Assembly (NCBI GenBank): GCA_022842935.1 | Contig: JALHOP010000008.1 | Location: 186,001-250,000 of the forward strand | Source of the DNA: Myxococcota bacterium | Lineage (GTDB): Bacteria; Myxococcota; XYA12-FULL-58-9; JALHOP01 | DNA: 64,000 nt | Direction of reading: 5' to 3' | In this document: piece after piece, positions 26,243-43,424 of the stretch | Numbering within the stretch: the first letter of the stretch is position 1 | How the letters are laid out: the number at the start of each line of letters is the position of its first letter | Made by a program: the position numbers and the translations under genes | Notes under the pieces: model-generated | What the model was told of the DNA's origin: nothing | The model's input: the letters and a program-made list of their open reading frames with translations, nothing else | The model's database searches: none

Positions 26243-27388
26243 CTACTCGACGCGGCGTCGCAAGAACGCCGGGATGTCGTACTCGTCGGCTGACACCTGC
26301 TCCTGGCGCTCCGGCGGACGAACCTTCGCGAGCTTCTCGTTCTCCCAGCGATTGCGGATGATCGTCGGAATGTCGGTCGCGACTTGCGGCAACGCTGCCG
26401 GCATCTGATGCGTATCGAGCTTCTTCGACTCGCTGCGGTCGAAGCCGGTCGCGATGACGGTGACCTTGAGGTCGTCGCCCATGCTCTCGTCGATGACTGA
26501 GCCGAAGATGATGTTGGCGTCTTCGTCAGCCGCCTCTTGGATGAGGATCGAAGCCGCGTTGATCTCGTGCAGCGTCATGCCGGGTCCGCCGGTGACGTTG
26601 ATGAGAATGCCGGTGGCCCCGTCGATGCTCACATCTTCGAGCAGCGGCGAGCTCACAGCTTGTGTGGCCGCCTCGATGGCGCGGCGCGGACCCGATGCAC
26701 GTCCAGTCCCCATGAGCGCCATGCCTTGATCGGTCATGATGGTGCGCACGTCGGCGAAGTCGACGTTGACGATACCGTGGAAGGTGATGAGGTCGCTGAT
26801 GCCCTGAACCGCGTTGAGGAGCACCTCGTCGGCCTTCTTGAAGGCGTCCATCATCGACGTGCTCTCCTCGGTGATCGAGAGGAGCCGCTGATTTGGGATG
26901 GTGATGAGCGTGTCAACGGCTTCGCGCAGCGCCAGAATGCCGGACTCGGCATGGCGGCGGCGACGGTTCCCTTCGAAGAAGAACGGCTTGGTCACGACGC
27001 CGACGGTGAGCGCGCCAAGCGAGCGAGCGATCGAGGCGATGACCGGAGCCGCACCAGTCCCGGTGCCACCCCCCATCCCGGCGGTGACGAACACCATGTC
27101 GGCACCCTCGAGTGCCGCCGCGATCTGATCTTTGTCCTCGAGCGCAGCCTCGCGGCCCACTTCGGGATTGGCGCCAGCACCGAGGCCCTTGGTGAGACCG
27201 TGGCCGAGCTGGATGCGGATGGGCGCGAGGTTGTTGCTGAGCGCCTGGCGGTCGGTGTTGGCAGCGAGGAACTCGACCCCGTGGATGTTCCCCTCGATCA
27301 TCGTGTTGATGGCGTTTCCTCCGCCACCGCCACAGCCGATGACCTTGATTAGCGCATCACCAAAACCGTTCTCATCCAACTCGATCAT
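26243..27388 (-). CDS. ftsZ: FtsZ cell-division GTPase
   Basis: 381 residues. It is the tubulin homologue that polymerises into the Z ring. The GTP-binding motifs are [13 protein letters not shown] at the start and the tubulin signature [10 protein letters not shown] at about 105-115. The T7 loop [11 protein letters not shown] and the short C-terminal tail [12 protein letters not shown], which binds FtsA, are intact. I chose the ATG at 27388 because a GGAGGG ribosome site (27394-27399) lies five bases upstream; an overlapping GTG at 27394 is less likely. The linker is short. It is the last gene of the dcw cluster, with a 350-base gap after ftsA. Confidence 0.98.
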
Positions 27389-27394
27389 GAACAC

Positions 27395-27740
27395 CCTCCG
27401 GAAAATGCGAGCCGCGCAGCCCGCACACTCAATTCAGTAGATTCGTTCGAATAGAATCGAGCTAACGCGTCGATCTTAATTCAACACGATCGCGCGTGGA
27501 ATCGATTTTTCTTGCAACACGTACGTTTTCACGTGCGCGACGTACGCGCGGCCGCTATCGCGGCCACACTCTGTTTTCTGCGCCTCGTTCCGCCTTCGGC
27601 GGCGGCGCTGTCGAGTTCGCCGCAAAAAACGTCGGAGAACCCGACGCCAGGCCACGCCGGAGCTTCGTTCGCAACGGGCGTTGCGGCACGAACCGGTTCG
27701 CGAACCGGGTCAGCGGCCCGCTCACTTGCAATCAGGCTCA
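27395..27740 (-). other. ftsA-ftsZ intergenic region
   Basis: This 346-base gap contains no convincing gene. About 27411-27530 is unusually AT-rich for this genome, with several TTGAAT/TTGCAA-like hexamers on the minus strand, and is the natural place for a private ftsZ promoter. I could not fix a -35/-10 pair. The ftsA-proximal half carries two compact inverted repeats (27670-27685 and 27693-27708). Confidence 0.5.
27670..27708. repeat. Two adjacent inverted repeats downstream of ftsA
   Basis: CGCAAC at 27670-27675 pairs with GTTGCG at 27680-27685 around a four-base loop. CCGGTTCGCGAACCGG at 27693-27708 is a perfect 16-base palindrome. They lie 33-70 bases after the ftsA stop in the ftsA-ftsZ gap. 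They may end or stabilise the ftsA transcript or bind a dimeric regulator. No U-tract is present. Confidence 0.5.
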
Positions 27741-28970
27741 TCAGAACAACTCTCCCAGCCACGAGCGCATGCGACTCTTCACTTTGTTGTAGACGTTGTC
27801 GTCGCGGACCTTGAAGAAGCGGCTCTCCTCGTGATCGCGGCCGTACATCACGAGGCCAACACCGGTCGCGTACATCGGGCTCTTCACGACGTCGACGAGA
27901 CCGCCGATGTTCGACGGCACGCCTTGGCGCACCGGCAGCCCCAAGATGTCCTCGGCGAGCTCAGGCATGCCCTTGAGCAAGGTCGCACCTCCCGTGACCA
28001 CGACCCCCGAAGCCAACAGGTCTTCGTAGCCGGTACGCTGAATCTCCTGGTGGACGAGCGAAAACATCTCTTCGACGCGCGGCTCGATGATCTCGGTGAG
28101 GATCTGCTTGGAGAGCTGACGGGCCTTGCGGCCGCCGACGCTCGGCACCTCGATGGTGTCTTCGGGCTCGACCATCGATTGCATCGCGCAACCGTACTTC
28201 TGCTTGATCTGTTCGGCCTCCTCCATGGGCGTACGAAGACCGACCGCGATGTCGCTCGTGATGTGATCGCCGCCAATGGCGAGCACGCTGGTGTGCACGA
28301 TGGAGCCGTTCGACCAAATGGCGATATCCGTGGTGCCACCGCCGATATCGATCAACGCGACGCCAAGCTCCTTTTCGTCCGCCGAGAGCACCGCATGCGA
28401 CGACGCGAGCTGCTCGAGCACGATGTCGGCGACGGTCAGTCCGCACCGTTGGGCGCACTTGATGATGTTCTGGGCGCTGGTGACGGCCCCGGTGACGATG
28501 TGGACGCGGGCCTCGAGGCGCACGCCGCTCATCCCGAGCGGCTCCTTGATGCCGTCCTGATCGTCGATAATGTATTCCTGAGGTAGGATGTGAATGACCT
28601 CGCGATCGAGCGGGATGGCCACCGCCCGCGCGGCGTCGATAACGCGGTTGATGTCGGCGCGAACGACCTCTTTGTCCTTCACGGCGACGATACCGTGGCT
28701 GTTGAAGCCCTTGATGTGGCCCCCCGCGATGCCCGCGTAGACGTGGGAAATCTCGCAGCCAGCCATCAGCTCGGCTTCCTGGATGGCCTGCTTGATCGAG
28801 TCGACCGTCGCCTCGATGTTGATGACCACGCCTTTGCGCAGCCCCTTGGACGGGTGGGTCCCAATACCAACGATGTCGATGCCGCCGGTTGCCGTCACTT
28901 CTCCGACAATGGCGCAGATCTTCGTGGTCCCGATGTCCAGGCCAACGACCAACTCACCTTTTTGAGCCAT
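27741..28970 (-). CDS. ftsA: FtsA, actin-like membrane tether of the Z ring
   Basis: 409 residues. It has the actin-fold phosphate motifs VVGLDIGTTKICAIVGEV at the N-terminus, ALIDIGGGTTDIAIW in the middle and VVTGGATLLKGMPE near the C-terminus, with the FtsA-specific SHVYAGIAGGHIKGFNS (1C domain). The extreme C-terminus YNKVKSRMRSWLGELF is an amphipathic helix suited to membrane binding. It binds the FtsZ tail and recruits later divisome proteins. It follows ftsQ by five bases. Confidence 0.97.
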   Translation of the reverse strand: MAQKGELVVGLDIGTTKICAIVGEVTATGGIDIVGIGTHPSKGLRKGVVINIEATVDSIKQAIQEAELMAGCEISHVYAGIAGGHIKGFNSHGIVAVKDKEVVRADINRVIDAARAVAIPLDREVIHILPQEYIIDDQDGIKEPLGMSGVRLEARVHIVTGAVTSAQNIIKCAQRCGLTVADIVLEQLASSHAVLSADEKELGVALIDIGGGTTDIAIWSNGSIVHTSVLAIGGDHITSDIAVGLRTPMEEAEQIKQKYGCAMQSMVEPEDTIEVPSVGGRKARQLSKQILTEIIEPRVEEMFSLVHQEIQRTGYEDLLASGVVVTGGATLLKGMPELAEDILGLPVRQGVPSNIGGLVDVVKSPMYATGVGLVMYGRDHEESRFFKVRDDNVYNKVKSRMRSWLGELF

Positions 28971-28975
28971 CTCAA

Positions 28976-29851
28976 TTACCTCGCGGTTGCTAGGAGATCA
29001 GTTGCCGGGTCCGCGTCGGTGCGCGTGGGCGCCTCGATACGAGCCTGGATGAAGCTTCGACCGACGGGCGCGTCCGCCCACAAGACTCGGGGCGCGGCGC
29101 CCAACTGTGCCAAGCGTGCGAGCGACGCGGCGGCGACGTCCAGCGCCTGGCGCGGCTCGCGACCCAAGTGCGTCGTCATGGCGTGGGCGCCTGTGACACG
29201 GGTCACGACGCTCCAGCCTAGCGCCTCGTCCCAGTGCAGCTCGTCGACACGACCGAGCGCACTCACGCGACTCTGGACGAGCTGTGCAACCTCCGTCGCA
29301 TCGCGGACGCGCGCATGGACCCCTTCGGCGTCGCGCGCGGCTGACTCGCGTGAAAGGCCGGTCAACACCGGCACATCGAGCTTGTCGTCGGCGCTTTGGC
29401 GCTTCACCAACTCGCCGCGCCGATTCGCGACGTAGAGATCGACGACGCCAGTCCCAGCCTCGCTGCCGAGAGCCACCACGATGATGGGATCGTGCTCGAC
29501 AACCTCGATGGTCACCTTGTCGGGCAGGCGACGCTTCACGGTGGCGCTGTCGACCCAGGGATGCCGCCGCAAGCTCATCGCGATGTCATCGAGGTCGAGC
29601 GCGAGCATGGGATCGCCGAGCTTCACGCCGGCGTAGGCGACAATGTCAGGCTCGAGGGCACGCACGGCACCGCTGACTTCGATGTTCCGAACAGCGAACG
29701 TGCCCGACTTGGCGAGAGCTTCCCATCCGTAGCGTCCCCCCAGAACGACACCCGCGAGGGTCGCGACCGCCGCCATCCACGAAGCGATGATGCGGAACAC
29801 CGGTAGACGCGTCGCTTCGTCGGCTCGACTGCGCCGATTCTTCTTACTCAC
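28976..29851 (-). CDS. ftsQ: FtsQ/DivIB division protein
   Basis: 291 residues. A basic cytoplasmic tail (KKNRRSR) is followed by a transmembrane segment at about 20-45 and a POTRA domain beginning [34 protein letters not shown]. The FtsQ beta domain then includes [26 protein letters not shown]. It is a bitopic divisome protein that scaffolds FtsL/FtsB. The start is a GTG overlapping the murC stop (GTGA). Confidence 0.94.
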
Positions 29852-31233
29852 GCTTTCACCTCCGAACGCGCCGCGAGGAATTCCTCACCGGCTTGGTAGA
29901 CGTTTCCGGCACCTAGCGTGAGGATGAGATCGCCGGGCGTGGCGATGTCGGCGAGGCGCGCCGCGACCCGCTCGACCGGACCGATGTATTCGGCATTCGG
30001 GTGACCGTGCTTGCGAACGGCCTCCGTCAGGGCCCAGGCGTTGACGTCGGCAATAGGCGCCTCGCCGGCCGCGTAGACATCAGCAATGAGAACGACGTCG
30101 GCGTTGCCGAACGATGTCGCGAACTCACCCATCAGATCGCGGGTCCGCGTATAGCGGTGGGGCTGGAACACGACGACGAGGCGCCGCTTGTGTGAGCCCT
30201 TGGCTGCTTCGAGAGTCGCTTGAATCTCCGCCGGGTGGTGCCCGTAGTCGTCGACCACGAGGATGTCATTGACGTGACCCTTGACCTCGAAACGGCGACC
30301 AACGCCGTCGAAGCTCGCGAGGGCCTGGCTCGCGACATCGAACTTCACACCGACTTCATCAGCGACCGCCAAAGCAGCCAGTGCGTTGAGCACGTTATGC
30401 TTCCCGATCATCGCGAGCCTGGCGCGTCCGAGCTCGACCCCTTTCTTCTTCACGGTGAAGCTCATGGCGCCCTCGAGGGCCTCGAGCTCGGTTGCCACCC
30501 AGTCGGCTTGGGGCGCGAAGCCGTAAGTGACCGCCCGTTTCTCGAAGCGAGGCAACGCCTGCTGAACTGTCGGATGATCGAGGCAGACCACGGCAGCTCC
30601 GTAGAACGGCACTTTGTTGGCGAAATCCACGAACGCGTCGACGATTTGTGGGAGGCCGCCCCGCCAGTGATCGAGGTGCTCGGGGTCAATGTTCGTGATG
30701 ATCGCGATCGTCGGCATGAGGCGCAGAAACGAGCCGTCGCTCTCGTCCGCTTCAGCGACCAAGTATTCGCCGCCGCCGAGGCTTGCGTTCGTGCCAATCG
30801 AACGCAGGCGGCCGCCGATGACGACCGTGGGGTCGAGTCCACCCTGGCGCAAGATCGTGGAGACCAGCGAGGTCGTCGTGGTCTTGCCGTGGGTGCCGGC
30901 GACAGCAATGCCGTACTTGAGGCGCATGAGCTCGGCGAGCATCTCGGCACGCCGGATGACGGGAATTCCGCGGCTGCGCGCCTCGCGTACCTCGGGGTTG
31001 GTGGCATGAACCGCGCTCGACACCACGACCACGTCAGCGTCGCCGACATGGCTCATGGCGTGGCCCTTGTGAATCGTAGCGCCAAGCGAGGCGAGCCTCT
31101 TGGTGACGCTCGATTCGGCGAGGTCGCTGCCGCGGACGTCGAAGCCCAGGGCGATAAGCACTTCGGCGATGCCGCTCATCCCAATGCCGCCGATACCCAC
31201 GAAGTGGAGCTTTCGCGCGCGCTCTCTAAACAC
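29848..31233 (-). CDS. murC: UDP-N-acetylmuramate--L-alanine ligase
   Basis: 461 residues. It adds L-Ala to UDP-MurNAc in the cytoplasm. The N-terminal nucleotide-binding glycine motif is [17 protein letters not shown], the ATP P-loop is [12 protein letters not shown], and the Mur ligase central motifs HLDHW and the C-terminal [10 protein letters not shown] are present. It overlaps murG by eight bases upstream and ftsQ downstream. murB and ddl, which often sit next to murC, are absent here. Confidence 0.97.
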
Positions 31234-32290
31234 GACCTACCTCCTCGAGAGCATCGGCGATGGCGCTCGCGGCGTACGGGCGGCCGACATCGTGGGCAGC
31301 CTTCGCCATGGACACCAGGCGATTGCCATCGAGCTCCGTCAAGAGCTTTGCCAGATCGTCCGCCAAGCTAGCGGACTGCGCGAGATGAATGGCGGCGCCC
31401 GTCGCGGCGAGCGCTTTGGCGTTCGCCGTCTGGTGGTCGTCGGTGGCGCCCGGGAACGGCACCAAGATCGATGGGCGTCCGACCACCGTGAGCTCGGCGA
31501 TACTCGTCGCCCCAGCCCGGCACACGACGATATCGGCGTCCCGGTAGGCTGCCGCCATGTCGTCGATGAACGCGGACACGTGAGCGTCAGTCACGCCGGC
31601 CGAGACATACGCATCCCGCACGCGTTGCTGATCGGCTTCACCTGTCTGATGACGCACCGTGAGGTTGAGATCCCGGAGACGCGGCGCGAGCTTCATCATG
31701 GCCTCGTTGATCGCGCGCGCGCCCTGCGAGCCGCCAAACACGAACAACCGACGTGGCGATGATGGCGTGTAGACGCTCTCTCGAACGGGGACCAGATCGG
31801 CGCGCACCGGATTGCCAAGCACCTTCACCTTGTCACCGCTCAGGGTCGTCGTTGGTAGCGAAGCGATGACGCGTGCGGAAACGCCAGCAAGGATTTTGTT
31901 GGTAAGACCGGGGATCGCGTTCTGCTCCATGACCACGCACGGGACGCCGAGCAAGCGCGCGGCCAACACTGCGGGGCCAGCGGCGTAGCCACCGACGCTC
32001 ACCGCGACTTGGGGCTTGAAGCGGCGCACGACGCCCAGGGCCTTGACGAGCGCTATCGGCAGACGCGCAAGCCCCATGAACAAGCCGACGACGCCCGTAC
32101 GCTTCAAACCGGACACCGGCAAGAGGGCGAGCTCGAACCCAGCCTTCGGTACGGCGCGCGTCTCGATCCCCCGTGCCGTGCCAACGAAGAGGATGCGAGC
32201 CTGCGCATCGCGCCGCTTGAGCTCTTGGGCGAGTGCGATCCCCGGAAACAAGTGACCACCTGTGCCGCCGCCTGCGATGAGGACGTCCAT
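31226..32290 (-). CDS. murG: MurG, lipid II-forming GlcNAc transferase
   Basis: 354 residues from the ATG at 32290, one base inside the ftsW stop (TGATG). The glycosyltransferase family 28 N-terminus [19 protein letters not shown], the acceptor loop [20 protein letters not shown] and the C-terminal donor region [13 protein letters not shown], then [16 protein letters not shown] are all present. It transfers GlcNAc to lipid I on the inner membrane face. The open frame upstream to 32428 lies inside ftsW and has no homology. Confidence 0.97.
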
Positions 32291-33477
32291 CACGTAGCGC
32301 CCCCTCTTTCGCGGGCGATACGCAGCAAGATGCCCGTGCCCATGAGGGCCGTGAGCAAATTCGAACCGCCATAGCTGACGAACGGCAAGGGTAAACCTTT
32401 GCAGGGCAACAAGCCGGTGGCGACGCACACGTTGAAGATTGCTGGGACGCCGATGAGGGCGACGATACCGACCGCAAGATACGCCGCGAAAGGGTCTTTC
32501 GCATCGCTCGCGATCGACAGACCGCGCCAGATGAACAGACCGAAACCGCTGAGCAGCGCAACGATGCCGACGAGGCCCAGTTCTTCTCCCAAGATCGCGA
32601 AGATGAAATCGGTGTGCGCTTCCGGCAGGAAGAAGAGCTTGTGCTTACCGTCACCGAGGCCGAGCCCGAAGACGCCGCCGGAGCCTATCGAAATGAGAGC
32701 TTCGGTCACCTGGTAGCCCACCGTGCTGCGGTAAGCCCACGGGTCGATGTAGCCCAGCATGCGCTGCAGACGAAACGGCGTCCCCATGACCAGGTGGTAG
32801 AAGACGGGTAGCGCCGCCAGGGCGAGTACCGCGATCGTCCGCAAGCGCAAACCCGCCGCGAAGATCATCGTGAACATGATGAGCTCGATGACGAGCGCGG
32901 TACCAAGGTCGGTCTCGGCGAGAATGAGCGCGACCGGAACCTGCGTGAGCATGACGGGGACCAAGAGCTTACCCGCCTTGCCTTGTTTCTTTTCGCGCTT
33001 GGCCAGGACGGCGGCGAGCATGACGATAACCGACATCTTGGCGAGCTCACTCGGCTGGAAACCCAACGGACCGAGCTGCAGCCAGCGTCGCGCACCACCG
33101 GCGACGTGACCGATACCGGGGATGAGCACGAGCACACAAAGCGCGGTACAGACGAGGAAGATCTTGAGCGCGTTGTCTCGCAGCCAATCGGTCGACGTGC
33201 GCATGAGCAAGAGACACGCGACTCCGCCGATGGCGCACGCTCGAAGCTGTGCGCGCAAGAAGACCTCGGCGTCACCGAAGTTGCGCTGTGCGTAGACCGA
33301 GCTGGCGCTGTAGACGAGTACAAGCCCGAGCGAGACCAGCGCGACGACCAGGCCGACGATGACCCCGTCGGTTCGGCTCGCGGCGACCGAACGGTCCTCA
33401 TGGGCGACGGCCCACTTGAAGTAGTGAGCAAAACCGGCAGAGCGGTAAGACGCCGCGAAGCTGCGCACACGCGTCAT
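32290..33477 (-). CDS. ftsW: FtsW, SEDS-family septal peptidoglycan polymerase
   Basis: 395 residues with about ten membrane segments. SEDS landmarks are VYSASSVYA in TM1, GGARRWLQLGPLGFQPSELAK, the ETDLGTALVI loop, HTDFIFAILGEELGLVG and the final PFVSYGGSNLL. It polymerises lipid II with FtsI at the septum. The extra 30 cytoplasmic residues at the N-terminus are common in this family. Its ATG overlaps the murD stop (ATGA). Confidence 0.96.
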   Translation of the reverse strand: MTRVRSFAASYRSAGFAHYFKWAVAHEDRSVAASRTDGVIVGLVVALVSLGLVLVYSASSVYAQRNFGDAEVFLRAQLRACAIGGVACLLLMRTSTDWLRDNALKIFLVCTALCVLVLIPGIGHVAGGARRWLQLGPLGFQPSELAKMSVIVMLAAVLAKREKKQGKAGKLLVPVMLTQVPVALILAETDLGTALVIELIMFTMIFAAGLRLRTIAVLALAALPVFYHLVMGTPFRLQRMLGYIDPWAYRSTVGYQVTEALISIGSGGVFGLGLGDGKHKLFFLPEAHTDFIFAILGEELGLVGIVALLSGFGLFIWRGLSIASDAKDPFAAYLAVGIVALIGVPAIFNVCVATGLLPCKGLPLPFVSYGGSNLLTALMGTGILLRIARERGGAT

Positions 33478-34895
33478 GACGCTCCCCTCCCCAGACTGGT
33501 CACCAACTCTTTGAACGTGCGGCCACGGTGCGCGTAGTTCGTGAACTCGTCGAACGAAGAGCAGGCGGGCGCGAGCAAGACGACCTCGCCAGCCTTGGCT
33601 TCCATCGCGGCTTGCGCGAAAGCGGCTCTCATGGTCGTCGCCAGGCGAAGACCAGGATGCTCACGGAACGCTTCGGCGATGGGCTTCTGAGCCGCGCCGT
33701 AAGCATAGACAACACGCACGCGCTGCTTCGAAGCTTCCACCAGACGCGCATAGCCGCCGCCTTTGTCGACGCCACCAGCGAGCAGGACCACTGGACGATC
33801 CATGGCCTCGACCGCGATGGCGGCCGAGTCGTCGTTCGTCGCTTTGGTGTCGTTGACGTATCGCACGCCACCGACCTCGGCGACGAGCTCGAGGCGGTGC
33901 TCGAGCCCCTTGAATTCCCGATAGGCGCGTTCGAAAAGTGGACGGCTCGTCGCGTCGACAATGCCAAGTCCGACAACCGCCAGGAACGCAGCCAAGGCGT
34001 TCTCGCGGTTGTGCCTGCCGAAGAGACGCGCATGCGTGAGGTCGAGCCCCTCCAGCACCGCGGCAGCCCCGACGCCGCGAACGGTATCGCCCTCGAGCCA
34101 GGCTCCGTGATGACCTGGGAGCTTCGCGGCGCGCGTCGAGAACCACATCAGCCGCGCATTGGTCTTCTTTGCCATCGCCGCAACGATCGCATCGTCAGCG
34201 TTGAGGACCGCGCTGTCTTCAGGCCCTTGGTTCTCGAGGATGTGCGCCTTCGCGTCGGCGTAATCGTCGATGGTCGCGTAGCGTTCGGCGTGGTCGGGCG
34301 TCAAGTTCAACACAACCGAGACGCGGGGCTTGAAACGGTAGGCCGTCTCGAGCTGGTAGCTCGACAGTTCGAGACTCGCGAGGTCGGTCGGCCGCTGATC
34401 GACCCAGTTCGCGATCGGCGAGCCGAGGTTGCCCCCCGCGAACGTGCGAGCACCGCGAGCCGAGGCGAGCACCCCGAGCAGTGCCGTCGTGGTGCTCTTG
34501 CCATTCGTCCCGGTGACCGCGGCGACGAGGCCCGGGAGCGGCGCGCACAGCTCGAGCTCACCGACGATCGGTACACCGCGGTCGCGAGCTCGCCTGACCT
34601 CGGCCTTGCGCGGATCGATGCCAGGCGAGATGGCAAGCAAGTCGCAGTCGTCGAAGGCGTCGACCGCAACAGGGCCGAAACGGTGGACGATCGTGTCAGA
34701 AGCCTCGAGGACGACCGGGAGCTCTGGTGTCTTGGCATCGACCAGCACCACGGTCGCCCCGCGCCGCATGAGGTACTCCGCCATGGCGCGGCCCGAGATA
34801 CCAAGACCGTAGACACCAACACGCCGGTTCACGAGATCCGCTTTTGCGGCGTCGATGCGAGCGAGCATCGCCGTATCGGAGAACCAGTTGGTCAT
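33474..34895 (-). CDS. murD: UDP-N-acetylmuramoyl-L-alanine--D-glutamate ligase
   Basis: 473 residues from the ATG at 34895, which overlaps the mraY stop (ATGA). It adds D-Glu to UDP-MurNAc-L-Ala. GLGISGRAMAEYLMRRGA is the N-terminal motif, GTNGKSTTTALLG the ATP loop, and LNLTPDHAERY, FGRHNRENALAAF and VNDTKATN the Mur ligase signatures. The same frame stays open to 35771 through mraY, but that Arg/His-rich extension is a shadow. Confidence 0.97.
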   Translation of the reverse strand: MTNWFSDTAMLARIDAAKADLVNRRVGVYGLGISGRAMAEYLMRRGATVVLVDAKTPELPVVLEASDTIVHRFGPVAVDAFDDCDLLAISPGIDPRKAEVRRARDRGVPIVGELELCAPLPGLVAAVTGTNGKSTTTALLGVLASARGARTFAGGNLGSPIANWVDQRPTDLASLELSSYQLETAYRFKPRVSVVLNLTPDHAERYATIDDYADAKAHILENQGPEDSAVLNADDAIVAAMAKKTNARLMWFSTRAAKLPGHHGAWLEGDTVRGVGAAAVLEGLDLTHARLFGRHNRENALAAFLAVVGLGIVDATSRPLFERAYREFKGLEHRLELVAEVGGVRYVNDTKATNDDSAAIAVEAMDRPVVLLAGGVDKGGGYARLVEASKQRVRVVYAYGAAQKPIAEAFREHPGLRLATTMRAAFAQAAMEAKAGEVVLLAPACSSFDEFTNYAHRGRTFKELVTSLGRGAS

Positions 34896-36040
34896 CGAAG
34901 TTTCAACGTCGTCAGAGACACCAGGGCCAAGATGATGGACACGATCCAGAATCGAACGATGATCTTGGGCTCGGGCAGCCCCTGTAGCTCGAAGTGATGG
35001 TGAATCGGCGCCATGCGGAAGACGCGACGGCGAAACAGCTTGAAGCTCGTCACCTGCGTGATGACGCTGACTGCTTCGGTGAGAAAGACGCCATGCAAGA
35101 TCGCCGAAAGAAACTCGTTCTTGGTGAGCACCGCCATGGTGCCAAGGGCGCCGCCGAGCGCGAGCGAGCCGACGTCGCCCATGAAGACGGAGGCGGGATA
35201 GGTATTGAACCAGAGGAAGCCGATGCCAGCTCCGGCGATAGCTGCGCTCACCACCGCGAGCTCCGAGACGCCCTCGATGTGCGAGATATTCAGGTACTTG
35301 GCAACGTTGAAGTCGACCCATTCGCCCTGCACGTGAAAGGTGAGCACCAGACCGGCGGCGTAGGCGAGGAAGAGCCAAGTCGCGGCCGAGACGACGGTTG
35401 GTCCAATCGCAAGACCATCGAGACCGTCGGTCAGGTTCACCGCGTTGGACGTGCCGATGATCACGAGGATGGCGAACGGTAGATAGAGCCAACCGATATC
35501 GGGATTCCAGCGGTCGACCGAGATGAAAGGGAATGTGAGGCGCGTATCGAACTCGGCGTGGGTACCAGGGATATGCCCCATGTGACTCGCCATCAGTAGA
35601 CCGGCGACCGCCAGGAGCACGACGAGCTGCCAGACGAGCTTCCAGCGACCGGCGAGACCCTTCGAGTTCTTCTTGCTCACCTTGCGGTAGTCGTCGACGA
35701 AGCCGATGACGCCGAAGCCTGCAGTGACGATGAGCACCGCCCACACCAATAGGTTCGAAATGTCGGCCCACAGTAGCGCCGCCGAAATCATCGACACGAG
35801 GATGAACAGCCCCCCCATGGTCGGGGTCCCGCCCTTCTTCTTGTGCGTCTCCGGCGTGTCTTCACGGACGTTCGAGACGCCATATTGGGTCTTGCGCAGG
35901 AACTCGATGAACGCCGGAAAGAACCAAAGCATCATCACCAGCGCGGTCAGCGCCGCAGCCGGGATGCGGAACGAGGGATACTCGAAGACGCGGAAGGCGC
36001 CGAACTCGTTCCTGAGCGATGAGAACAAGAGATAGAGCAT
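34892..36040 (-). CDS. mraY: MraY, phospho-MurNAc-pentapeptide translocase
   Basis: 382 residues with ten predicted membrane helices. It forms lipid I on undecaprenyl phosphate. The motifs present are KKGGTPTMGGLF, the metal-binding FVDDYRKV (Asp pair), NLTDGLDGLA and the C-terminal PIHHHFELQG. The start ATG overlaps the murF TAA stop by one base. Confidence 0.97.
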   Translation of the reverse strand: MLYLLFSSLRNEFGAFRVFEYPSFRIPAAALTALVMMLWFFPAFIEFLRKTQYGVSNVREDTPETHKKKGGTPTMGGLFILVSMISAALLWADISNLLVWAVLIVTAGFGVIGFVDDYRKVSKKNSKGLAGRWKLVWQLVVLLAVAGLLMASHMGHIPGTHAEFDTRLTFPFISVDRWNPDIGWLYLPFAILVIIGTSNAVNLTDGLDGLAIGPTVVSAATWLFLAYAAGLVLTFHVQGEWVDFNVAKYLNISHIEGVSELAVVSAAIAGAGIGFLWFNTYPASVFMGDVGSLALGGALGTMAVLTKNEFLSAILHGVFLTEAVSVITQVTSFKLFRRRVFRMAPIHHHFELQGLPEPKIIVRFWIVSIILALVSLTTLKLR

Positions 36041-37446
36041 TAGTGGGAATCCCCCCCTGACTGCCCGGACAGGTGTTCGACGACGCGCTCCATCTTCATG
36101 CCGCGCGAGCCCTTCACCGTGATCCAGTCGCCGCGCCGCATGCCGGAAGTCAGCGTTCGATTCAACGCATCGATGTCGAGAAAGGCTTCCGCCTCTGCTC
36201 CGTTATCGCGGGCACCCGAGGCTGTCTCGGTGGCATTGGGGCCGAGTGCGAGCACCCAGGTGATTCCAGAACGAGCGGCTGCTTCACCGACTTGGCGGTG
36301 CAATGCGGGTGCCGTATCGCCGAGCTCGAACATGTCGCCGATGACAGCCACGCGGCGGGCACCCTTTGGCGCGAGCTCGGCCAGGCTAGCGAATGAGGCG
36401 ATCATCGACTGCGGGTTGGCGTTGTACGTGTCGTCGACGATCGAGACGCCGTTCGGAAGATCGCGCAGGATGCGCTGACGGCCGCCCGGAACCTTCACGC
36501 TCGCCAGACCCTGCGCGATGGCCGCGGCGTCGAGCCCAAGCGCGTAGGCGCAAGCGGCGGCCGCTGCGGCGTTGGCTACGTTGTGACCACCGACCAGCGG
36601 CAACGCGACGTCGACCACAGCGCCAGCGATGGCGAGGGTCACGAGACTTCCTTCGCGGGCGCCGACGCTCTTGACGATGCGCACATCACAGCCGGGCCCG
36701 CGTCCGAACGTGAGCTGCTTTCGCTTCCCCACGAAGGGTAAGGCGATCTTCATGATCAGGGGGTCGTCGGTGTTGACGACCGCGGTGGCGTTTTCGGGCA
36801 ACATTTCGAAGAGCTCTGCCTTGGCGCGCGCGATGTTCTCGATGGTCCCAAGTCCCTCGAGGTGCGCGGGGCCGACAGTGGTGATGACACCGATATCTGG
36901 AACGGCAATGAGCGCCAGACGATCGATCTCGTGCCGCGCGTTCATCCCCATTTCGATGACTTGCGCCCAGGTACCTTCCGGCCGGGCAACCAACGTCAGC
37001 GGCACGCCAATCAAGTTGTTGAGGTTGCCCTGCGTCTTGTGAACGGGGCCACGCGCAGAGAGCGCCGCCGCGATGAGCTCCTTCGTGGTGGTCTTGCCAT
37101 TCGAACCGGTGACCGCGACGACTGGGCCATCTTCGCCGAGGCGGATGCCACGAGCGATGTCGCCAAGGGCGCGCAACGTATCGTCGACCACGATGGTCGG
37201 GACTCCGACATCGCCAGCGGTGTTTGCAAACGCCCGGTCGACACAGACGGCGACGGCGCCGCCTGCGACGGCTGCAGGCACGAACTGATGTCCGTCGAAG
37301 CGGTCACCGCGGAGCGCTACGAACAAGCACGCGGGCGGTAGGGACCTCGAGTCGGTCCCTACCGCCTTCACGCTCACGGGGAGCGCCCCTCCGCTGACTT
37401 GTGCCCCGGCGGCTCGCGCAAGCGCGCCGAGATCCCAAGATTTCAT
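36040..37446 (-). CDS. murF: UDP-MurNAc-tripeptide--D-Ala-D-Ala ligase
   Basis: 468 residues. It adds the D-Ala-D-Ala dipeptide. The N-terminal substrate domain contains GTDSRSLPPACLFVALRGDRFDGHQF, the ATP loop is GSNGKTTTKELI, and EMGMNARHEI, DDTYNANPQSM and AVIGDMFELG are MurF hallmarks. A GAGGT ribosome site lies upstream of its ATG. It is separated from murE by 267 bases, the longest gap in the mraZ-to-ftsA part of the cluster. Confidence 0.97.
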   Translation of the reverse strand: MKSWDLGALARAAGAQVSGGALPVSVKAVGTDSRSLPPACLFVALRGDRFDGHQFVPAAVAGGAVAVCVDRAFANTAGDVGVPTIVVDDTLRALGDIARGIRLGEDGPVVAVTGSNGKTTTKELIAAALSARGPVHKTQGNLNNLIGVPLTLVARPEGTWAQVIEMGMNARHEIDRLALIAVPDIGVITTVGPAHLEGLGTIENIARAKAELFEMLPENATAVVNTDDPLIMKIALPFVGKRKQLTFGRGPGCDVRIVKSVGAREGSLVTLAIAGAVVDVALPLVGGHNVANAAAAAACAYALGLDAAAIAQGLASVKVPGGRQRILRDLPNGVSIVDDTYNANPQSMIASFASLAELAPKGARRVAVIGDMFELGDTAPALHRQVGEAAARSGITWVLALGPNATETASGARDNGAEAEAFLDIDALNRTLTSGMRRGDWITVKGSRGMKMERVVEHLSGQSGGDSH

Positions 37447-37465
37447 CGTCTGTTACCTCTTCCCA

Positions 37466-37717
37466 TCATGTGTTGGAGCGGCGGGCCATTGGCACCCGCG
37501 CTGGTTCAAGTCGACTGTTGACCCCTGAAACGCGGCCGCCAAGAAGGCTGCCTACTCGCGCCGATGCCCCGAAGGACTGCTCCGTCCCTTGCCCACCGCT
37601 CCCACGAGCGCGCCAGGCCTCTGGCAAACGCCACGACATGGGCTCCTCGCTCTGAACCCTCTCGTCGCCGTTGCGCAACGCAAACGCCGCAGGCACCACG
37701 TACCAAGTCTCACTCAC
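37466..37717 (-). CDS. Possible small protein between murE and murF
   Basis: An 83-codon open frame whose GTG start overlaps the murE stop (GTGA), exactly like the real gene junctions of this cluster, and which ends 19 bases before murF. The product is basic and Arg/Gly/Ser-rich with no recognised domain, signal or membrane segment. Third-position GC is only moderate, below that of neighbouring genes. It could be a coupled small gene or simply an untranslated leader. Confidence 0.3.
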   Translation of the reverse strand: MSETWYVVPAAFALRNGDERVQSEEPMSWRLPEAWRARGSGGQGTEQSFGASARVGSLLGGRVSGVNSRLEPARVPMARRSNT

Positions 37718-39273
37718 GAGGACCCCCGAGGTTTCTTTGGTTTTGGTGACACGTCATCGTGCGAGGCGGGAACCCGAGGCTCCATCGTTGCCGGCGACGA
37801 TGACGAGGTGTTGGCGATCTTGGCGAGCGCCTTCTTGGCTATCTCGCGGTCATCGAAGGCGCGCCTTTCGGCCCCGACAATCTGGTAGTTTTCGTGCCCT
37901 TTGCCAGCGATGAGCACCGCGTCTTCGTTCGCAGCTTTACCGATGGCAAGCTCGATGGCGGCGGCGCGATCGAGCTCGACGAGATAACCACCGCCGCTCT
38001 TTTTCATGCCTACCTCGATCTGCGCCGCGATGAGCGCAGGGTCTTCGGTGCGCGGGTTATCGTTCGTAATGATGCTGAAGTCGGCGCCATTGCCGGCCGC
38101 CTCGCCCATCGGCGCACGTTTCTTGGCGTCGCGGTCTCCACCGCATCCGAAGACACAGATGAGCTTACCGTCGGTGAGCTCGCGCACCGTCGCCAGCGCT
38201 TTGGTGAGCGCGTCGGGTGTGTGCGCGTAATCGACCAGCACCACGGGTCCAGAACCGCTCCCCGCTCGCTCGAGGCGGCCGGGTACAACGCCGCGATTGC
38301 GGATTGCGGACAGCATGGTGGCGTCGGGGATGCCGAGCGCCTTGGCGACGCCGATCGCGAGCAGCAAATTTTCGACGTTGAAGCGGCCGACCAGCGGCGA
38401 GTCGATGTCGAGCGGACCAGCCGACCGTAAGGCCGTGAAGCGCGTGCCAGTCAGCGCCAGCTGCACGTTCGTCGCCGCGATGTCGGCATCGGCGCCGAAC
38501 GGGCTCACACCAATCACCTGGCGACCCGAGTCGCGCAGCTCACGCGCGAGGCTCGCGCCATAGCGGTCGTCGATGTTGATGACGGCGCAGCCCCCGCTCT
38601 TTAGGTGTGTTCGAAAGAGCGCCGCCTTGGCCTCGAAGTAGTTCTCCATGGTGCCGTGAAAATCGAGATGGTCGTGCGTGAGGTTCGTGAATACACCGAC
38701 GTCGTAGGCGACACCTTCCACGCGCCCCTGCGCCAACGCGTGCGAGCTCACTTCCATACTGACCGCTTTCGCGCCCTGGTCGCGCATCGATCCGAACGCC
38801 TGCTGCAGCTCAAGTGATTCCGGCGTCGTGAGGCCAGTGTCGATCGTGGTGTTGCCGAGGCGAACCCCAAGAGTCCCGACGACACCGGTCGGCATTCCGG
38901 CGGTCTCGAGCAACGCTGCCACTAGATGGCTGGTGGTGGTTTTGCCGTTGGTACCGGTGACACCAACCATGGTCAGGTGGTCGGAGGGCTCGCCATAAAA
39001 ACGCTTCGCTGCGAGGGCCAATGCCCGTCGACTGTCTGACGCGACGACACGTGTGACGTTCCCCGTATCGACCTCACGCTCGCAGAGGATGCTCGTAGCC
39101 CCGGACGCAATCGCCTTGGCGATGAAGTCGTGGCCGTCGCTCTTCGCCCCGGGAATAGCGGCGAAGAGCGAACCGGACACAACGCGGCGTGAATCGTAGG
39201 CCAGAGCAGACACATCGACGTCTCCGCCGTCGATGCGAACGCCCTGACCTTCGAAGAGCCGCGTCAGATTCAC
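37714..39273 (-). CDS. murE: UDP-MurNAc-L-Ala-D-Glu--meso-diaminopimelate ligase
   Basis: 519 residues. Motifs are DSRRVVSGSLFAAIPG in the substrate domain, GTNGKTTTSHLV as ATP loop and FTNLTHDHLDFHGTME. DNPRTEDP is the DNPR signature that selects meso-diaminopimelate over lysine, so the cell wall is DAP-type. The start is a GTG overlapping the ftsI stop (GTGA), with a GGGGAG ribosome site six bases upstream. The C-terminus runs about 30 Ser/Pro-rich residues past the usual end. Confidence 0.97.
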   Translation of the reverse strand: MNLTRLFEGQGVRIDGGDVDVSALAYDSRRVVSGSLFAAIPGAKSDGHDFIAKAIASGATSILCEREVDTGNVTRVVASDSRRALALAAKRFYGEPSDHLTMVGVTGTNGKTTTSHLVAALLETAGMPTGVVGTLGVRLGNTTIDTGLTTPESLELQQAFGSMRDQGAKAVSMEVSSHALAQGRVEGVAYDVGVFTNLTHDHLDFHGTMENYFEAKAALFRTHLKSGGCAVINIDDRYGASLARELRDSGRQVIGVSPFGADADIAATNVQLALTGTRFTALRSAGPLDIDSPLVGRFNVENLLLAIGVAKALGIPDATMLSAIRNRGVVPGRLERAGSGSGPVVLVDYAHTPDALTKALATVRELTDGKLICVFGCGGDRDAKKRAPMGEAAGNGADFSIITNDNPRTEDPALIAAQIEVGMKKSGGGYLVELDRAAAIELAIGKAANEDAVLIAGKGHENYQIVGAERRAFDDREIAKKALAKIANTSSSSPATMEPRVPASHDDVSPKPKKPRGSS

Positions 39274-41267
39274 GGTTGCTCCCCTTGTGAGGTGAGCACC
39301 AAATGCAAGCGTCGATTCGGGTCGTCTTGGCTACCCGCCGCGGGCGACTGGCGCACCACACGCCCACTGCCCTCGAGCTGAAGCTCGGCGTGGAGTTGCA
39401 GTTCGCTATAGCGGTCCATCGCCTCGCGCGCGGTCAGACCAATGAAGCTCGGGACAGTCCCTTTCTCGACAGCGCGGTCGGCGAGGTCCGGCATCTGGGG
39501 CGCGATGGCCGCGGCGACCTTTGGGGCATCCGTCGACTCGGCGGTCGCCGCCTTGCCTTCAGGCTTCTTGTCCAGAGCGACGACGGCCGAAGGGACAACA
39601 CCCATGGCGCGCATAGCAACTTCACCGATTCGCGCGAAGACGGGCGCCGCGGTGTCGCCACCGTGATGAAGCTTCATGGGCTCGTCGATGGCAACCGCGA
39701 TAACGACGCGGGGCGCTTCGGCGGGCAGGAAGCCCGCGAACGACGCGGCATAGCGGTCATTCGTGTAACCGCCCGCGACCGTGTCGATCTTGGTCGAGGT
39801 GCCGGTCTTACCCGCTACCCGGTAGCCGGGTACACGCGCGAGGTAACCAGTGCCTTCGTCTGAGACCACTGCCTCGAGCATCGGCGTCACCAAGCGCACG
39901 GTCGACGACTTGAAGACTCGGCGCTCGGGAGGCGCAGCGAGCTTCATCACACGGCCGTCGGCATAACGAACTTCGCGAACCAGGCGCGGCGCTCTGTACA
40001 TGCCGTCCGCCGCGAGCGCGCGATATGCCGCGGCCAGCTGCAAGGTCGTCACCGCGATGCCGTGGCCGTACGACATGGTTGCGACGTGAATCGGGCCCCA
40101 CGTGTTCGATGGCCGCATCAAGCCGGGCAACTCGCCGGGCAGCTCGATACCGCTGCGTGCGCCGAAACCGACGCCCTTGAACAACTCGCCCAGCCGCTCG
40201 CGACCGAGCTTCTCGCCGACCTTGGCAGCACCGATATTCGACGAGCGTTGCAGAATGCCCGTCAGGCTCATCCAGCCGGCCGGATGAATGTCGTGGATGG
40301 TGTGCGAGCCGATCTTCATTTCGCCGTTCTCGCAAAAGAACGGATCGTTCTTGCCGACGGCGCCAGCATCGAGCGCTGCGGCGATGACCAGCGGCTTCAT
40401 CGCCGAGCCCGGCTCGAAAACGTCGGTCACGGGGCGATTTTTCATGCGCGCTTTCGGCGTCGTCTGCGCGGCATTCGGGTTGAAGGTGGGCTCGGTCGCG
40501 AGCGCCAACACTTCAGCGGTGGCGACATCGAGGACGACGGCGGTGCCAGATTGGGCGTCATACTCCTTGAGCGCCTGGGCCAACGCGTCTTGCGCGGCGT
40601 GCTGCAGGGTCAAGTCGATGCTGAGCTTCACGTCGGCACCGTGCGAAGCCTCGCTATCGAGGCTACCCTCGAGCACGCTACGACCGCGGGCATCGCGTAC
40701 AGCCGCGACCACGTGTGGTTCGCCTGCGAGAGCTTCGTCGAGCTGCCTCTCGACGCCTTCGAGCCCCTTCGATTCGATGCCCGCGAAGCCGATGATGTTC
40801 GCTGCGATGGTGGTGTTCGGATAGAAGCGCCGAGGCTCCTTTGCGATACCGATCCCCGGGAGCTTGGCCGTCTCGATGGCCTTGGCGACCTCGGGCGAGA
40901 CCTGGCGCGACAGCCATACGAAGTACCGCTCGCTCGCAAGCTTCTGGTAGGTTGCGTCCAGGTCGAGCTTGAGGATCTGCGCGACCTTGCGCGCTGTCCC
41001 ACGCGGGTCCTTGATGTCGCCCGGGTTCGCGAAAACGGACGGTGCATCAACCGAGATGGCGAGCTGCCGACCTTCGCGATCGCTGATGACGCCTCGCGCG
41101 GCGGGTACCTTGACGTCGGAGAGATATTGCCCGCGCGAAAGCTTCGCGAGGCTCTCGTGCTGTGAAACCTGAAGTTGAAAAGCGCGCGCCGCGACGCCCA
41201 CGAGCGCCGCGACCATGACGACGAACACGATACGTACGCGAGATTGGAAGGCTCTGCGCTCAGCCAC
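39270..41267 (-). CDS. ftsI: FtsI/PBP3 septal transpeptidase with PASTA domain
   Basis: 665 residues. A cytoplasmic basic tail and one transmembrane helix (about 12-32) are followed by the PBP dimerisation domain, then the transpeptidase domain. That domain has SxxK as SAMK in FEPGSAMKPLV, SxN as SSN and KTG as AGKTGTS. A PASTA domain at about 595-660 (VPSFIGLTAREAMDRY) closes the protein, a feature uncommon in E. coli-type FtsI. The GTG at 41267 is chosen because AAGGGAGG lies five bases upstream and the start then overlaps ftsL by eight bases. Confidence 0.96.
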   Translation of the reverse strand: MAERRAFQSRVRIVFVVMVAALVGVAARAFQLQVSQHESLAKLSRGQYLSDVKVPAARGVISDREGRQLAISVDAPSVFANPGDIKDPRGTARKVAQILKLDLDATYQKLASERYFVWLSRQVSPEVAKAIETAKLPGIGIAKEPRRFYPNTTIAANIIGFAGIESKGLEGVERQLDEALAGEPHVVAAVRDARGRSVLEGSLDSEASHGADVKLSIDLTLQHAAQDALAQALKEYDAQSGTAVVLDVATAEVLALATEPTFNPNAAQTTPKARMKNRPVTDVFEPGSAMKPLVIAAALDAGAVGKNDPFFCENGEMKIGSHTIHDIHPAGWMSLTGILQRSSNIGAAKVGEKLGRERLGELFKGVGFGARSGIELPGELPGLMRPSNTWGPIHVATMSYGHGIAVTTLQLAAAYRALAADGMYRAPRLVREVRYADGRVMKLAAPPERRVFKSSTVRLVTPMLEAVVSDEGTGYLARVPGYRVAGKTGTSTKIDTVAGGYTNDRYAASFAGFLPAEAPRVVIAVAIDEPMKLHHGGDTAAPVFARIGEVAMRAMGVVPSAVVALDKKPEGKAATAESTDAPKVAAAIAPQMPDLADRAVEKGTVPSFIGLTAREAMDRYSELQLHAELQLEGSGRVVRQSPAAGSQDDPNRRLHLVLTSQGEQP

Positions 41268-41601
41268 GGCGGCCTCCCTTGCTATCCGCTTTGGCGGGCT
41301 TATCGGGAGCGGCATGCAGACGAGGCGCGTTCTTGCCGACAACCTGGGTCGGAGCAGGAGGTCGCAGGCCCAACTGCTTCGCTAGCTGCACGAGGTGGGT
41401 GGGCGAGCGCTCCGCGGCCAGCTCGAGCTCGAGCTGGCGCTCTAGATGAGCGAGCTCGGTGCCCCTTCGTTCCTCGCTGGAAAGCTGGTAGCCGAGGCGC
41501 ACTGCTTCTTGATGCACCCAAACGCGGAAGAGGCACGCCGAGACTGGCGTCACAGTCGCAGCGACGAAGATGAGGCGCATGAGCAACGTGCCGATGCTCA
41601 T
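41260..41601 (-). CDS. ftsL: FtsL-type bitopic division protein
   Basis: 113 residues. There is one transmembrane helix near the start (LLMRLIFVAATVTPVSACLFRVWV), then a heptad-rich periplasmic coiled coil (LSSEERRGTELAHLERQLELELAAER). This is the FtsL architecture, and the gene sits between rsmH and ftsI as in other dcw clusters. Sequence identity in this family is always low, so the call rests on topology and position. The start overlaps the rsmH stop (ATGA). Confidence 0.88.
   Translation of the reverse strand: MSIGTLLMRLIFVAATVTPVSACLFRVWVHQEAVRLGYQLSSEERRGTELAHLERQLELELAAERSPTHLVQLAKQLGLRPPAPTQVVGKNAPRLHAAPDKPAKADSKGGRRG
41273..41280 (-). promoter_or_regulatory. Ribosome-binding site that fixes the ftsI GTG start
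   Basis: AAGGGAGG on the minus strand at 41280-41273 lies five bases before the GTG at 41267, inside the last codons of ftsL. This near-perfect Shine-Dalgarno rules out the longer open frame that begins at 41342. Confidence 0.8.
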
Positions 41602-42557
41602 GTGGACCTCGGGGAGCGGCGCACCGCACGCAGCCTCGCGCTGCGCGCCCGCGGATTGCTCGCGACCTCGGCGTTGCTCGCCGTTTCGTTGGCGACTTCC
41701 ATGAAAACGCCCGCTGCGGAAGTAATCGGCGACGCGGCACTCGTAGCGGCGGCCTTGTACTTCGAAACATGGCGACGCTTCGTTCCGTGCTCGCGGAAGA
41801 AGTGTTTCACCGCACGGTCTTCGAGCGAATGAAACGTAATCACCATTCCCATACCGCCGTCGGCGAGAAGGTCCGGAAGTTGCGCGAGATATTTGTCGAG
41901 CTCGCCGAGCTCGTCGTTCACGGCCATGCGCAGGGCCTGGAAGGTTCGGGTCGCTGGGTGGATGGCGTCGCGCGGCGCGGGGGCGACGCGCTTGACCAAC
42001 TCGGCCAGAGCGCCCGTGGTCCGAGGCAGGTCCGCCTTCACGGCTCGGGCAATGCGGCGCGACTGGCGTTCTTCACCGAGTTGGAAAATCAAATTGGCGA
42101 GATCTTCCTCGTCGGTCGTGTCGATGAGCTCGAACGCCGTCATGCCGCGCGTTGTGTCCATACGCATGTCGAGCGGTGCATCGAAGCGAAACGAAAAGCC
42201 ACGATCGGCGGTGTCGAACTGATGCGAGGACACGCCAAGGTCGACGAGCGTTGCATCGACCTGCGCGATACCGAGGTCCGCGAGAACCCGGGAAGCCTCG
42301 GAGAAAGAGGCGTGGACCAGCGTTACACGATCGCTAAAGCGGTCAAGCCGAGCACGGGCCGCGTCGAGCGCTTCAGGGTCGCGATCGATGCCGACCAACT
42401 TGGCTTCGGGCAACGCATCGAGCATCGCGGCGGCGTGTCCCGCCCCACCTAACGTTCCGTCGAGGATGAGCCGGGGGCCGCTTGCCTCGACCAGCTTGAG
42501 GACCTCAGAGAGCAGGACCGGTTGATGCTGGAAAGCGATGGCCAAGGCAGCGCTCAC
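41598..42557 (-). CDS. rsmH: 16S rRNA (cytosine1402-N4)-methyltransferase
   Basis: 319 residues. HQPVLLSEVLKLVE starts the family domain, DGTLGGAGHAAAML is the SAM-binding loop, and LVDLGVSSHQFD, RGFSFRFDAPLDMRMD and ALRMAVNDEL follow. C-terminal VITFHSLEDRAVKHFFRE completes the RsmH/MraW signature. It methylates C1402 of 16S rRNA. The start is a GTG overlapping the mraZ stop (GTGA). Confidence 0.97.
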   Translation of the reverse strand: MSAALAIAFQHQPVLLSEVLKLVEASGPRLILDGTLGGAGHAAAMLDALPEAKLVGIDRDPEALDAARARLDRFSDRVTLVHASFSEASRVLADLGIAQVDATLVDLGVSSHQFDTADRGFSFRFDAPLDMRMDTTRGMTAFELIDTTDEEDLANLIFQLGEERQSRRIARAVKADLPRTTGALAELVKRVAPAPRDAIHPATRTFQALRMAVNDELGELDKYLAQLPDLLADGGMGMVITFHSLEDRAVKHFFREHGTKRRHVSKYKAAATSAASPITSAAGVFMEVANETASNAEVASNPRARSARLRAVRRSPRST

Positions 42558-43027
42558 AGTCCCAGCTCCGCGAGCTTTTGAGCCACGGCCTGGCGGTCAG
42601 AACGCGACAGCCGCGACTGCTCGGTCCACGTCTCTTTCGACCACATCTCGATGGTAGCGACCATGCCCGCAAAGACGACGTCGCGCGTGAGACCGGCGTA
42701 CTCGCGAAGCATCGGCGGCACGAGGAGCCGGCCGTGGCGGTCGATGGGACACTCGGTCGCGCCGGCAACGTAGATGCGCTTCACCTGGACCACCGCCGGG
42801 TCGAACTGCGGCAGGGCCGCGAGGCGCGCTTCGAAAGCGTCCCATTCGGCTCGCGGGTACGCAACCAGGCACTTGTCGATGCCAGTCGTGATGATGAGGC
42901 TCGCATCGTGGTCGCCATTGTCGCCGTCATTCTGTCCGCTATTGCGGCCAAGAAGCTCCCGAAAGCGCTGCGGCAGGCTCACTCGGCCTTTGGCGTCGAT
43001 GGTGTGCTCGTGCAGGCCGCGAAACAT
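42554..43027 (-). CDS. mraZ: MraZ, transcriptional regulator of the dcw cluster
   Basis: 157 residues with two SpoVT/AbrB-like MraZ repeats: MFRGLHEHTIDAKGRVSLPQRFR and, in the second half, TECPIDRHGRLLVPPMLREYAGL. In E. coli and other bacteria MraZ represses its own promoter and the dcw genes by binding direct repeats upstream of mraZ. An Asn/Asp/Gly-rich insertion (about 25-45) is unusual. A matching array of phased repeats lies just upstream (separate entry). Confidence 0.97.
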   Translation of the reverse strand: MFRGLHEHTIDAKGRVSLPQRFRELLGRNSGQNDGDNGDHDASLIITTGIDKCLVAYPRAEWDAFEARLAALPQFDPAVVQVKRIYVAGATECPIDRHGRLLVPPMLREYAGLTRDVVFAGMVATIEMWSKETWTEQSRLSRSDRQAVAQKLAELGL

Positions 43028-43052: not shown

Positions 43053-43070
43053 GGTGGTGCTTACACCACC
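43053..43070 (-). promoter_or_regulatory. Hairpin in the mraZ leader
   Basis: GGTGGTG at 43053-43059 and CACCACC at 43064-43070 form a perfect seven-base stem with a four-base loop, 25 bases upstream of the mraZ ATG. It overlaps the start-codon-proximal unit of the MraZ repeat array, so it may simply reflect two opposed binding half-sites. Confidence 0.45.
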
Positions 43071-43119
43071 CTTCCCAACCCAGCACCGCTTGGATCCACC
43101 TGGATCCACTTTTTGCCAC
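43066..43119 (-). promoter_or_regulatory. MraZ operator: 10-bp-phased GTGG repeat array
   Basis: On the minus strand, GTGG occurs at 43116-43119, 43106-43109, 43096-43099 and 43066-43069. One-mismatch units GCGG (43086-43089) and GTTG (43076-43079) fill the gaps, giving six units at exactly 10-base spacing. The array lies 39-92 bases upstream of the mraZ ATG. MraZ is known to bind tandem short G-rich repeats at helical-turn spacing upstream of its own gene, so autoregulation of the dcw cluster is expected. Confidence 0.75.
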
Positions 43120-43424
43120 CCCGGTTGTCTCTTAGCCGAGGCATGCAGATCAAGATCTTTGTGTTGGAAAAACTTATGGAAAAACGCGGCAGTCGGTGAG
43201 GGGATGTAGGCCTATACATACATTTTGACATGCATGTGGCGGACGGACGTTACACTGCCTTGCCATACATGTGTGGTGAAAGCGGCAGGCCCGATTCTGC
43301 TTAGATCTCGCTAAGTGCCTGAGATCATTTGGGCGGGCGATCGTCCGAGATCGTCAGACCCTCCCGCTACGCTATGGGGCCCTTAGGGTCGAGCCGTCGT
43401 CATCCCGCGACGAGCCCAACCCAC
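43120..43424. other. Gene-free region between the serine hydrolase gene and mraZ
   Basis: About 305 bases without a gene. It must carry the dcw promoter (minus strand), although I see no strong -35/-10 pair near 43125-43180. On the plus strand TTGACA at 43225-43230 overlaps the palindrome ACATGCATGT (43228-43237), with TACACT at 43251-43256, a spacing of 20 that is too long for a good promoter. Small inverted repeats follow at 43300-43315, 43304-43326 and about 43357-43390. The last may terminate the hydrolase transcript. Confidence 0.45.

Follow-up and report, generated by a model that had tools for sequence, protein, structure and literature searches.

A phased array of predicted MraZ boxes, some of GGATC type, upstream of the division and cell-wall gene cluster in uncultured Myxococcota

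Introduction

Few regulators of bacterial division genes are as widely conserved as MraZ. The leader of E. coli K-12 mraZ contains the units GTGGGAAATT-GTGGGGCAAA-GTGGGAATAA-GGGGTGAGGC; TTGACA lies 31 nt before the start of this array and mraZ 44 nt after it, and repression by E. coli MraZ is described in the literature that PMC7761207 and PMC8475190 cite. At PmraBc of Burkholderia cenocepacia, MraZ binds in gel shifts to DNA containing four GTG repeats of 7 nt with 3-nt spacers between them, and these repeats lie downstream of the -10 element and overlap the transcription start site (PMC7761207). A Mycoplasma genitalium mraZ mutant overexpresses the cluster, and the boxes are AAAGTG[T/G] (PMC8475190), the form given for the Mollicutes by Fisunov 2016 as cited in the same article. 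For the mraZ promoter of S. aureus a G-quadruplex has been claimed (PMC11796246). It sits in a G-rich stretch downstream of the promoter, where MraZ boxes are expected, and the quadruplex and the MraZ boxes may be the same DNA under two readings.

Here we describe a phased array of predicted MraZ boxes in a window of 64,000 nucleotides from a Myxococcota bacterium, and compare it with the leaders of mraZ across the phylum. The collection contains only eight genomes of the class to which this one belongs, all uncultured, judging by named records.

Results

Gene context of the array

An initial sequence-only reading of the window linked the array to the dcw cluster, and mraZ indeed heads a same-strand cluster running to ftsZ.

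42554-43027, minus strand: mraZ (Pfam PF02381, E=1.3e-32), two domains, with DAKGR and DRHGR motifs
41598-42557, minus strand: rsmH (mraW; Pfam PF01795, E=3.3e-95)
41260-41601, minus strand: ftsL-like small ORF of 113 amino acids, named solely from its position and an N-terminal hydrophobic stretch
26243-41342, minus strand: remaining dcw cluster, in the same-strand order ftsI, murE, murF, mraY, murD, ftsW, murG, murC, ftsQ, ftsA, ftsZ

The genes ftsI, murD, ftsW, murG, murC, ftsQ, ftsA and ftsZ were assigned with Pfam, and murE, murF and mraY from their translations and position. Upstream of mraZ, a gene for a beta-lactamase-family protein on the same strand ends at 43425. The cluster is tightly packed apart from a gap of approximately 270 bp between murE and murF (37447-37713), which may hold an internal promoter. 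The cognate MraZ encoded downstream of the array has a conserved DNA-binding motif, and residues D11, K13, G14, R15, D96, G99 and R100 are invariant across 19 homologues. MraZ proteins of the order carry an insertion after residue 27 that varies in length and composition (42907-42947 in the window) and reaches approximately 40 residues in one relative (L023).

Six phased units upstream of mraZ

Re-reading of the minus strand confirmed the coordinates, the 10-bp steps and the distances to the ATG given in the sequence-only reading. The units start at 43119, 43109, 43099, 43089, 43079 and 43069, all steps being exactly 10 bp, and the array occupies the stretch 39-92 bases 5' of the mraZ ATG at 43027. 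The unit cores read, in order, GTGG, GTGG, GTGG, GCGG, GTTG and GTGG, and the minus strand through the array reads CCGG GGTGGCAAAA AGTGGATCCA GGTGGATCCA AGCGGTGCTG GGTTGGGAAG GGTGGTGTAA GCACC. These are directly repeated GTG(G) boxes at a spacing of one turn.

43110-43119, minus strand: predicted MraZ box 1, GTGGCAAAAA; strong, 13.8 bits with a position weight matrix trained outside the order
43100-43109, minus strand: predicted MraZ box 2, GTGGATCCAG; GGATC type, called with the matrix
43090-43099, minus strand: predicted MraZ box 3, GTGGATCCAA; GGATC type, called with the matrix
43080-43089, minus strand: box 4, a variant, GCGGTGCTGG; its GCGG recurs in phase in relatives
43070-43079, minus strand: box 5, doubtful, GTTGGGAAGG; matrix score -2.1
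43060-43069, minus strand: box 6, outlying, GTGGTGTAAG; matrix score 7.2

Dinucleotide shuffling of the 150-nt leader gave no set of six in-phase units as good as the array in 20,000 trials, and the in-phase tail (units 4-6), with boxes 1-3 given, was equalled in 31 of 50,000 shuffles; both figures are indicative, as the GTGG scoring was picked post hoc. The 6.28-Mb genome contains a single exact triple GTGG(N6)GTGG(N6)GTGG, the one in the mraZ leader. A genome-wide search for a wider MraZ regulon returned 35 one-mismatch triples versus 37 for the reversed control, and thus no excess, and a stricter two-box pattern gave three matches, the same number as its reversed control pattern.

The six units are not equal. 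The matrix gives units 4 and 5 negative scores. Of the 7 other members of the order, 5 have an in-register GG at unit 4 (p=3e-5) and just 1 has it at unit 5. For unit 6 the count is 5 of 6 (p=1e-5), compared with 0 of 41 at out-of-phase positions. This pattern makes boxes 1-3, 4 and 6 credible and box 5 doubtful. GCGG is found as an in-phase variant at unit 3 in 14 and at unit 4 in 8 of the 71 leaders outside the order. Of the six GTGG units proposed from sequence, the phasing stands but the equivalence does not: unit 4 is a recurrent variant, and the GTTG unit 5 is usually absent in the order. A more apt description of the array is three strong boxes with one GCGG box and one outlying GTGG box behind them, the fifth being doubtful. 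The two TGGATCCA palindromes of boxes 2 and 3 (43091-43108, plus strand) together give a terminator-like hairpin, behind which the opposite strand reads CTTTTTG; this hairpin is probably a by-product of the boxes.

Promoter and leader

43148-43153, minus strand: -35-like element TTGATC, 28 nt 5' of box 1
43125-43130, minus strand: weak -10 position, AGACAA, after a 17-nt spacer; assigned from position only
43053-43070, minus strand: hairpin GGTGGTG-TAAG-CACCACC in the leader, one arm shared with the box 6 region

Relatives in the order have TTGAC[TC] 24-29 nt 5' of their first box and TAAAGT/TTTAGA-like elements where AGACAA stands here. A consensus scan found no full sigma-70 match in this leader, and TTGA[CT] lies within 45 nt upstream of the array in 70 of the 79 leaders analyzed. 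The array is placed between the promoter and mraZ, at or shortly past the predicted start site, and its position relative to TTGATC and the ATG is conserved. The hairpin at 43053-43070, also pointed out in the sequence-only reading, is present and a bit rarer than chance (a perfect stem of at least 7 bp arises in approximately 2% of shuffled leaders), but it is found in no relative of the order and is probably incidental. The leader RNA folds only moderately better than its shuffles (z -2.1).

Conservation in Myxococcota

The leader set drew on the order and, across the phylum, on one or a few genomes from each genus, giving 79 leaders after removal of near-duplicates, 71 of them outside the order. 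A narrower alignment scan of the collection returned six uncultured Deltaproteobacteria/Myxococcota loci, at least five of which came from genomes already sampled. Comparison with relatives, named in the sequence-only reading as the check on its proposal, showed the phased GTGG units upstream of mraZ to be conserved in nearly all of the 79 leaders, with a TTGAC-type -35 element just upstream of the array. A box matrix whose training leaders all came from outside the order detects a phased array in essentially every leader and gives the unit form GTGG-N-A-A/T-R-A-A. Outside the order, 100, 99 and 90% of the 71 leaders match at least three of the four GTGG letters in register at units 1, 2 and 3. 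The share falls to 39% at unit 4 (p=1e-19) and to 29-30% at unit 5 (p=5e-9), over an out-of-register background of 3-7%. The surroundings diverge: pairs within the order share 75% identity in the box cores versus 26% further upstream.

Array length was counted with a lax rule, which requires at least three of four GTGG letters in consecutive units. This leader then has six units, other members of the order one to five, and 27 of the 71 leaders outside the order have at least four, with five or six units in six of these; the most frequent length there is three units (36 of 71). The rule undercounts relatives whose units read NNGGATC. One relative in the order (L005) has approximately seven units, GTGGTAAATT TTGGATCAGA TTGGATCGAG TTGGATCAAG TTTGATCGGC CCGGATCGTA ACGGGATCAA, two others (L004 and L006) have approximately six each, and L009 has five exact GTGG units. 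The array exceeds the usual three units, in keeping with the extension proposed in the sequence-only reading; the usual number in other phyla is that of published cases, and our own comparison outside Myxococcota is with E. coli. The extension of the predicted array is not peculiar to this genome, as relatives in the order reach five to seven units.

A GGATC type of box

Arrays in the order follow a pattern in which unit 1 is GTGG[G/C]AAAAA and units 2-4 are mostly NNGGATC. GATC is in register with the boxes in 25 of 26 cases in the order and in 50 of 71 elsewhere. Outside the order, 24 of the 56 in-register units at position 3 carry GGATC, versus 4 of 67 at position 2 (p=1e-6). The novelty lies in an extended predicted operator, shared across the clade, in which a second class of predicted boxes is of GGATC type. 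A search of the open-access literature found no prior description of a GGATC box type, and we know of none for MraZ. A single Dam-family adenine methylase gene was found (G000:C10:68015-68797, minus strand; TIGR00571, E=2.3e-81), and orthologues are present in 6 of the 8 genomes of the order, this genome included, and are patchy across the phylum.

Genomes without mraZ

Three genomes of one genus (L106, L107 and L108) contain rsmH but no mraZ match, while a congener has both mraZ and the array. All three keep the promoter almost letter for letter (TTGCATTTCTTGACCGGGTAGG-AGGCCGCGCGTATTTTCCGCCGCCCG) and retain the next gene, and the GTGG array has gone together with mraZ. Loss of the array with mraZ while the promoter stays ties the array to MraZ and not to the promoter. 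The joint loss was probably a single ancestral event, and a single deletion may have removed array and gene together. The kept promoter now lies ahead of a STAS-like gene and rsmH. In a further genome scored as lacking mraZ (G021), a divergent MraZ-like ORF precedes rsmH (approximately 929-1477 of L110 after reverse complementation), and no GTGG array was found at this ORF.

Discussion

The sequence-only reading put the array forward as an MraZ operator. The position of the array, its 10-bp register and its promoter context support this identification, as do its conservation across the phylum, its matches to E. coli and to the published B. cenocepacia site, and its joint loss with mraZ. Unusually multivalent MraZ control of the whole dcw cluster, also proposed there, is speculative. 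We are highly confident in reading the array as the MraZ operator for the division and cell-wall genes, with boxes 1-3 as a core followed by a weaker tail, where bound MraZ would repress mraZ, rsmH and the genes behind them. Such an operator would almost certainly autoregulate the mraZ-ftsZ cluster. The points against an operator are the weak -10 element, the poor box 5 and the joint loss with mraZ, which probably counts as one event.

An MraZ oligomer of two-domain, AbrB-like subunits would contact successive boxes, which the 10-bp repeat puts on one face of the DNA. The boxes appear to begin approximately at the transcription start and extend into the leader, so that bound MraZ would repress the cluster from mraZ onward by blocking either initiation or the escape of polymerase from the promoter. 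Boxes 1-3 would form the core, and the GCGG box 4, the GTGG box 6 and perhaps box 5 a weaker tail, as in relatives. This tail would probably raise occupancy, or engage a second oligomer or more subunits.

That the tail has any function we regard as reasonably likely. The opposite case, in which boxes 1-3 alone matter and units 4-6 are chance G-rich sequence behind an ordinary three-box operator, is rather unlikely. It would account for the negative matrix scores of units 4 and 5 and for three being the most frequent length outside the order under the lax rule, but not for the rarity of such a tail in shuffles or for the GG register at units 4 and 6 in other members of the order. A G-rich leader could also act as a G-quadruplex, as claimed for S. 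aureus (PMC11796246), with the 10-bp spacing incidental. Although GGGTTGGGAAGGGTGG is present at the tail and this leader has a G4Hunter score of 1.44, a canonical motif of four G3 runs occurs in no leader, and six of the other seven members of the order score 0.56-0.80 with their boxes still phased. Without conserved G-runs the quadruplex was rejected as the element, and we consider it highly improbable.

The later, GGATC-type units might be sites for a second regulator, or Dam methylation might tune MraZ binding to replication; both the phasing of GATC with the boxes and the methylase in most genomes of the order fit this. Against it, phased GATC is found in 14 of 30 Dam-positive versus 30 of 48 Dam-negative genomes, a difference in the opposite direction (Fisher p=0.24), and a register shared by box and GGATC is a better fit to one protein. 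A Dam-controlled GATC site was rejected on this lack of association across the 78 genomes, and the whole explanation seems very unlikely. A composite operator is a speculative reading that we hold unlikely. In the order it would consist of a canonical GTGG[G/C]AAAAA box and, behind it, as many as six in-phase NNGGATC boxes. These would form a second class, recognized by MraZ in another mode, by extra subunits or by a second oligomer, and repression of the dcw cluster would become unusually steep or graded.

Within the clade, the predicted natural operators range from three to seven phased boxes, with the GGATC type at fixed positions, and so provide a ready series in which box number and type could be tested against affinity, stoichiometry and repression. 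Such a series bears on how the ring-shaped MraZ oligomer reads rows of boxes and on what sets their number.

Compared with the known systems, the array resembles E. coli Pmra in its direct GTGG boxes at exact 10-bp steps, 3' of a TTGAC -35 element and just before mraZ. In E. coli a degenerate fourth unit (GGGG) follows three exact boxes and none is of GGATC type, whereas here three boxes, the second and third of GGATC type, are followed by GCGG, GTTG and an outlying GTGG. It shares with PmraBc of B. cenocepacia the 10-bp period and a site downstream of the -10 element that overlaps the start site, here a predicted one; there, four units are bound experimentally, while the array here is predicted. 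Direct GTG repeats in the mraZ promoter are likewise a feature of the Mollicutes, where MraZ represses the cluster, but those boxes lie in an A/T-rich context, and the description of them in PMC8475190 includes no GGATC type.
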